Assembly: GCA_009760855.2 (NCBI GenBank)
Contig: WPIO01000001.1
Coordinates: 9,285,001-9,349,000, forward strand
DNA length: 64,000 nucleotides
Direction: 5' to 3'
Source: Cristatella mucedo
Taxonomy: Eukaryota; Bryozoa; Phylactolaemata; Cristatellidae
The position numbers and the translations under genes were made by a program. The notes beneath the pieces were generated by a model, which did not search any database, was not told the DNA's origin, and saw nothing but the letters and a program-made list of their open reading frames with translations. Of this stretch, positions 24,626-52,962 are shown piece by piece (positions within the stretch are counted from its first letter, which is position 1; each line of letters opens with the position of its first letter).

Positions 24626-24706
24626 CGCTTGCAGCTTCAAAGCACCTCCAAAACTGCGAATGGCTATCATGAGCTCTTCGCGTGGATCCAAGGTCTGACT
24701 TGGAGA
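24626..24706 (-). CDS. COBL: COBL exon 11 (second WH2 motif)
   Basis: The acceptor is GACTTGTAG and the donor GCG|GTAAGC; the exon is 81 bases, phase 0 at both ends. It encodes SPSQT then [20 protein letters not shown]. This is a WH2 motif: an amphipathic helix (EELMIAIRS), a Gly-Gly turn and the ALKL core that binds the actin cleft. The usual LKKV ending would be completed by the next, unidentified exon. The stretch [12 protein letters not shown] is very close to Cobl WH2 motifs. Confidence 0.85.

Positions 24707-52962: not shown

Follow-up and report, generated by a model that had tools for sequence, protein, structure and literature searches.

A bryozoan cordon-bleu family gene with a candidate second WH2 motif

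The 64,000-nt stretch of the Cristatella mucedo genome analysed here (contig WPIO01000001.1, positions 9,285,001 to 9,349,000; hereafter the window) carries on its minus strand a gene whose sequence places it firmly in the cordon-bleu (Cobl) family, as a genuine invertebrate member. Our preferred explanation, to which we assign a probability of roughly 0.7, is that the gene encodes a lophotrochozoan Cobl of the invertebrate type, a scaffold at the membrane cortex that would promote actin filament formation with two WH2 motifs. What is possibly new is the second WH2 candidate, which lies on an exon of its own; together with a second Cobl gene on another contig of the assembly, it is the part worth following.

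As rebuilt from the raw sequence, the gene model opens with an ATG at 52962 and ends on a splice donor at 24626. Its 11 exons join into 1932 codons with no internal stop, and GT/AG borders and agreeing phases were found at all ten junctions. Ten of the exons (1892 codons) were found first by reading the sequence. The exon count and the interval of about 28 kb are the same as those proposed in an earlier sequence-only reading of this DNA, and the two ubiquitin-like (Ubl) domains (Ubl1, residues 38-115, exons 1-2; Ubl2, residues 125-202, exon 3), the three KKxxAP-type motifs (residues 5, 340, and 519), and the WH2 motifs (residues 1817-1835 and 1913-1932) lie where that reading had placed them.

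Results

Tandem ubiquitin-like domains and family membership

When the joined ten-exon protein was compared with 5.8 billion proteins, residues 1-280 being scored, only one of 5868 candidates reached E<=0.001. This match (E=3.7e-4) is a protein of 1631 residues from the damselfly Hetaerina americana. A search seeded with the damselfly protein gave 315 matches at E<=1; among the best 120, all named ones were arthropods and several were labelled cordon-bleu. A double-Ubl profile built from fragments of 100 of these best 120 listed arthropod relatives scored 61.6 bits against residues 1-260 (E=3.9e-21 for one protein), whereas the best of 2000 shuffles scored 8.8 bits. The profile alignment spans residues 41-174, that is, Ubl1 and most of Ubl2. 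These scores show the Ubl pair to be homologous, as judged by profile comparison, to that of arthropod Cobl and bear out the relation of residues 38-203 to Cobl that had been proposed earlier.

With residues 1-254 as the only query, the PDB gave no meaningful match (best E=1.4). A profile of Ubl2 and 17 arthropod rows had as the best of its 14 matches 2DAJ (E=7.9e-8), a structure of KIAA0977, which we take to be COBLL1. 2DAJ is a Cobl-domain structure (PMC3849942). AlphaFold modelled Ubl2 (exon 3 alone) with modest confidence (predicted local distance difference test [pLDDT], 69.7; predicted template modelling score [pTM], 0.55), and the model shows a predicted beta-grasp fold, as the sequence-only reading had anticipated. 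Foldseek matched this model to ISG15, ubiquitin, and SUMO types, the closest being ISG15 and ubiquitin chains, and a Raf-family RBD was among the 50 matches shown. Ubl1 crosses a splice junction, and the damselfly Ubl pair, made from 11 of 32 selected pieces, was folded in its place; two beta-grasp units were predicted (pLDDT 84.7, pTM 0.45, with their mutual placement uncertain), and linear di-ubiquitin was the top structural match.

The Pfam family PF09469 had no match in a six-frame search of the whole assembly and none in its 14 control genomes either, which makes this search uninformative. Among the ten single open reading frames (ORFs), Pfam reported only PRIMA1 and Mito_fiss_reg, both below the cut-off in the proline-rich ORF, and Rfam had no match within the window.

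One of the KKxxAP-type motifs precedes the Ubl pair and two follow it. The first compares with KRAP1 of vertebrate Cobl-like (amino acids 59-69), whose KRAP motifs lie at amino acids 59-69 and within 334-412 (PMC8282341). The sequence features that mark Cobl and Cobl-like proteins are found in the gene: a Cobl Ubl domain, a second Ubl preceding it, motifs of the KRAP/KKxxAP type, and a C-terminal WH2, the model stopping short of the true C-terminus.

Two candidate WH2 motifs

An arthropod WH2 profile was made from 73 unique strings in the last 90 residues of the 120 relatives (8 of the 120 gave none) and run against the 2752 stop-to-stop ORFs of at least 15 residues in the window. The motif on exon 11 (WH2b) ranked first (28.8 bits, E=1.1e-7) and that on exon 9 (WH2a) ranked second (11.0 bits, E=0.04), with the third-ranked ORF at 4.6 bits. 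Within the joined ten-exon protein, WH2b scored 22.1 bits and WH2a 7.0 bits; none of 2000 shuffles reached the latter score (best 3.7), and 166,987 control residues, namely the 120 arthropod relatives minus their last 120 residues, gave a maximum of 1.2 bits. On this evidence, WH2b is securely assigned as a WH2 motif homologous to that of arthropod Cobl, and WH2a is likely to be a real second WH2. A WH2 match was present in 113 of the 120 arthropod relatives; three of them gave a second match of about 1 bit, which we take as chance.

The only PDB match (177,635 sequences) for exon 9 together with ten residues of exon 10 was a Spire chain (E=0.56), and the linker with WH2b aligned to cordon-bleu in 3tu5 and 4jhd (E=0.025 and 0.063, respectively). 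WH2a and WH2b are 96 residues apart from start to start, with 77 residues between them. In chain 3tu5_B, the alignments put two WH2-type stretches at 162 and 250, a distance of 88; these presumably represent the final pair of WH2s in mouse Cobl and are also joined by a proline-rich linker. The molecule name of this chain lists gelsolin, cordon-bleu, and thymosin beta-4.

No third WH2 was found among the 2752 window ORFs, and one or more 3' exons outside the window could still hold one. A 17-residue stretch across the exon 8/9 junction was considered as a third WH2 and rejected, having no Pfam or PDB support. Exons 9, 10, and 11 are all of phase 0/0, and the reading frame would therefore survive the duplication, shuffling, or skipping of any one of them. 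A second WH2 could thus have arisen simply, by exon duplication or shuffling, and alternative splicing may yield forms with one or with two WH2s.

Exon structure

The coordinates of the gene are collected in Table 1. A scan for splice sites and phase, covering the nine introns between the first ten exons, returned a sole candidate of 120 nt (35890-35771), which became exon 7. The scan thresholds were strict (8 of the 9 internal acceptors of the ten-exon model would fail the acceptor threshold), and further exons are possible. Exon 7 has strong splice scores and a summed coding score near zero; the coding score is also near zero for exons 2 and 11, both of which have homology. Two other candidates were dropped by eye: an exon near 42562-42308, which might have supplied the missing 40 codons but was rejected on phase, the scan giving 35890-35771 instead, and a 23-nt exon near 28.1 kb, because exons 9 and 10 were already in phase. 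No Pfam family was found in the exon 8 ORF.

Exon 11 is not the last exon. A short terminal exon is expected, because most of the arthropod relatives in which a WH2 string is seen have no more than about 20 residues after it; this exon was not located in the ORF lists, the only place in which it was looked for.

Table 1. Features of the Cobl family gene (window coordinates)
Feature	Position	Strand	Residues	Remarks
Exon 1	52784..52962	-	1-59	Start and first part of Ubl1; Ubl part homologous, by profile score, to arthropod Cobl
KKxxAP/'KRAP'-type motif 1	52921..52950	-	5	Before Ubl1
Exon 2	50654..50846	-	60-124	Second part of Ubl1
Exon 3	44115..44349	-	125-202	Ubl2
Exon 4	43720..43874	-	203-254	Basic end KRKKKPKE
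Exon 5	40108..40948	-	255-534	Holds KKxxAP motifs 2 and 3
KKxxAP-type motif 2	40661..40693	-	340	Exon 5
KKxxAP-type motif 3	40130..40156	-	519	Exon 5; KKNRAPPPP
Exon 6	39245..39619	-	535-659	Low-complexity
Exon 7	35771..35890	-	660-699
Exon 8	29582..32865	-	700-1794	Ala/Ser/Pro-rich middle; open frame 3284 nt
Exon 9	28847..28969	-	1795-1835	41 codons; phase 0/0; WH2a at end
WH2a (likely)	28847..28903	-	1817-1835	End of exon 9
Exon 10	26470..26679	-	1836-1905	70 codons; phase 0/0; proline-rich linker
Exon 11	24626..24706	-	1906-1932	27 codons; phase 0/0; WH2b
WH2b	24626..24685	-	1913-1932	Exon 11; similar strings in Oratosquilla P0187/P0189

A second Cobl gene in the assembly

When the N-terminal protein was compared with the assembly, two adjacent matches were found besides the window exons, both on contig C518: 219671-219874 (41% identity, E=0.005) and 220074-220394 (30%, E=8e-4). 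The arthropod profile scored these pieces at 26.2 and 31.8 bits among 2148 ORFs. A piece upstream resembles the start of Ubl1 by eye, at 3.8 bits only. In the second piece the Pfam RBD model passes its cut-off (27.9 bits), whereas the Cobl model does not (14.1 bits). The Ubl region is followed by a KKYAAPPPPP motif, and the acceptor within Ubl1 appears, by eye, to have the same place and phase as that of exon 2. Judged from these matches, a divergent Cobl gene, the second in the assembly, is present at about 218.4-222 kb of the contig; its low identity suggests an old duplication.

No credible WH2 was found for this paralog over 185001-285000 of the contig, where the top score among 4038 ORFs was 6.1 bits (E=2.0), and a profile that included the two motifs of the window gene reached 6.5 bits at best in the same region. 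A WH2 on a split or divergent exon may have escaped detection. When exons 9-11 were used to search the assembly, 67 matches resulted, namely the three window exons and 64 others at E>=0.018; the next five loci were rejected, with a maximum of 4.5 bits against the WH2 profile. At 252.5-254.4 kb, the same contig has open frames that recall sterol O-acyltransferase by eye.

Other features of the window and the assembly

A long (CT)n tract (minus strand) occupies 41083-41188, upstream of exon 5. Intron 2 of the Cobl gene contains on the plus strand a reverse-transcriptase fragment (46402-47604; RVT_1, 2.1e-16 for 46402-46848), and a similar-looking piece lies near 61432-62271, with no Pfam match for 61432-61776. 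Downstream of the gene, charged open frames on the minus strand (1999-2385 and 8880-9278) recall exons of a NOM1-type nucleolar protein, with no Pfam match over the cut-off.

The mitochondrial contig (C688; 21,008 bp) uses genetic code 5, in which COX1 reads open. Among the best 120 of 7830 matches to this COX1, the closest named ones share about 81% identity and are for the most part from molluscs, with nemerteans, annelids, and a phoronid also represented; one match that bears no species name shares 95%. A tree of 34 of these 120 sequences and the COX1 of the contig set the latter beside annelids at a support of 0.45, which places the animal no more closely than among lophotrochozoans. One strand carries COX3-ATP6-COX1-ND3 and ND6-CYTB-ND4L-ND4-ND5, and ND2 is on the other (by eye except COX1). 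The contig also has repeated open frames, at 1632-2463 and 3747-4578 (L007) and inverted at 2534-3365 (L008). COX1 sequence also occurs elsewhere in the assembly, in pieces that resemble nuclear copies and in some cases contain TAA/TAG stops.

Discussion

Comparison with known Cobl proteins

Schultz and Terhoeven (2013; PMC3849942) reported homologs of Cobl from a cephalochordate, a hemichordate, sea urchin, arthropods, oyster, sea hare, an annelid, and a flatworm. That study already placed the family at the root of bilaterians, with a single WH2 in invertebrate Cobl and multi-WH2 Cobl arising after a vertebrate duplication, a view repeated in PMC11898890 (2025). The WH2 of ptr was found by a comparison of hidden Markov models (HMM-HMM; PMC4314737). 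Among the papers listed in searches of the openly licensed literature, we found no report of a multi-WH2 invertebrate Cobl. The sequence-only reading had held that the full actin-nucleating layout would predate vertebrates; an invertebrate Cobl-family gene is indeed present, but the age of the family has been known since 2013, and this gene has at most two WH2s against the three of vertebrate Cobl and the one of the published invertebrate form. Two WH2 motifs outside vertebrates are the part that would matter, and that reading did not single them out.

Like the 'ur-form' of invertebrate Cobl described in PMC3849942 and the Hetaerina americana protein (P0001), the window gene has a tandem Ubl followed by KRAP-type motifs. 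Arthropod Cobl also shares the proline-rich stretch and the C-terminal WH2, often DPR(D/E)xL(L/M)xxIRxFGG; however, it has one WH2 only, whereas in the window gene the linker is preceded by a second candidate. Vertebrate Cobl-like (COBLL1), which has an Abp1-binding repeat domain, resembles the window gene in its one early and two later KRAP motifs and in the match of the Ubl2 profile to 2DAJ/KIAA0977, but it has a single WH2 (PMC8282341). The same paper describes Cobl-like as acting with its one WH2 and the cofactor Abp1, and vertebrate Cobl as arranging actin monomers with three WH2s. If the history in PMC3849942 is followed, the window gene would be a co-ortholog of Cobl and Cobl-like.

Vertebrate Cobl has more than one WH2 near the C-terminus and a proline-rich linker of similar length, as the window gene would have if WH2a is a real motif, but it has three WH2s compared with two candidates here. 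In the PDB, the WH2a region matched nothing but a chain of Spire, a tandem-WH2 nucleator like JMY; neither Spire nor JMY is known to have the Ubl pair or KRAP motifs.

Proposed mechanism

The predicted layout is an N-terminal KRAP-type motif, the tandem Ubl, two further KRAP-type motifs, a long low-complexity middle, WH2a, the proline-rich linker, and WH2b. The KRAP motifs would bind the SH3 domain of syndapin (PACSIN) and so bring the protein to curved membrane, and WH2a and WH2b would each hold one G-actin, such that a single molecule would pair two monomers. Syndapin binding, actin binding, and filament promotion are inferred here from the family. As an intermediate between Cobl-like and three-WH2 Cobl, a two-WH2 Cobl would most likely be a cortical scaffold recruited by syndapin; unaided nucleation by this protein is put forward as a hypothesis.

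Alternative explanations

Several observations weigh against the reading of the gene as a two-WH2 Cobl. The Pfam models for Cobl and WH2, which the sequence-only reading had named as a check, both fell below their cut-offs (12.5 bits against 25, and 15.3 bits against 23.1 on WH2b), whereas the profiles built from arthropods matched; RBD (18.6) and RA (17.8) were also below cut-off. WH2a was unreported by Pfam at E up to 10, although the Pfam filters drop most matches above 0.1; the core behind its E value of 0.04 spans ten columns, and the match to Spire is not significant by itself. The comparison of WH2 counts covered arthropods only. The exon joins are predicted from sequence. Exon 7, the weakest exon and one with no homology shown, is weakly supported, and no stop codon was reached, since exon 11 ends on the donor GCG|GTAAGC and the 3' end is missing. 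In addition, efficient intrinsic nucleation by JMY requires all three of its WH2s (PMC12098658), which suggests that two may not suffice for nucleation.

The gene could be an ordinary single-WH2 invertebrate Cobl or Cobl-like, in which WH2a resembles a WH2 by chance or is what is left of a decayed one and filament promotion needs a partner such as Abp1, as for vertebrate Cobl-like. The silence of Pfam on WH2a and the lack of a credible second WH2 in any of the 120 arthropod relatives (0/120) fit this explanation; nevertheless, we consider it unlikely, because WH2a ranked second among the window ORFs, was unmatched in the shuffles and control residues, and occupies an in-phase exon of its own, with the proline-rich linker immediately after it. 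A history in which multi-WH2 Cobl is ancestral to bilaterians, WH2a corresponding to one of the upstream WH2s of vertebrate Cobl and having been lost in arthropods and in vertebrate Cobl-like, overlaps with our preferred reading and differs from it on history only. The proline-rich linker and the near-equal spacing in 3tu5_B agree with such a history, but we regard it as improbable: independent gain is simpler, given the single WH2 of arthropods and of the invertebrate genes in PMC3849942, and the shortness of WH2 motifs does not allow a tree to be made from them. It is very improbable that the model fuses a Cobl N-terminus with a separate gene for a WH2 protein, or that it represents a pseudogene. 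The 28-kb span, the reverse-transcriptase fragment in intron 2, the weak exon 7, and the lack of a stop codon and of a transcript would be in keeping with such an artefact, yet the 1932 codons are stop-free, the phases agree throughout, and in arthropods these N-terminal and C-terminal elements occur together within single proteins.

Implications

Cobl has been described as a young vertebrate actin nucleator that arose from duplication and the gain of two WH2s (PMC3849942; PMC11898890). We tentatively raise the possibility, toward which we remain somewhat sceptical, that a tandem-WH2 Cobl able to nucleate alone exists outside vertebrates. Cobl would then have been duplicated in a lophotrochozoan, with one copy gaining a second WH2 and thereby repeating the vertebrate Cobl/Cobl-like split independently, or a multi-WH2 ancestor would have been preserved. 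If true, this would contradict the published account, in which extra WH2s and nucleation appeared only after a vertebrate-specific duplication. A two-WH2 lophotrochozoan Cobl, accompanied by a second Cobl gene with no detectable WH2, would be a natural repeat of the vertebrate experiment and would let one ask what number and spacing of WH2s convert a single-monomer binder to a nucleator.
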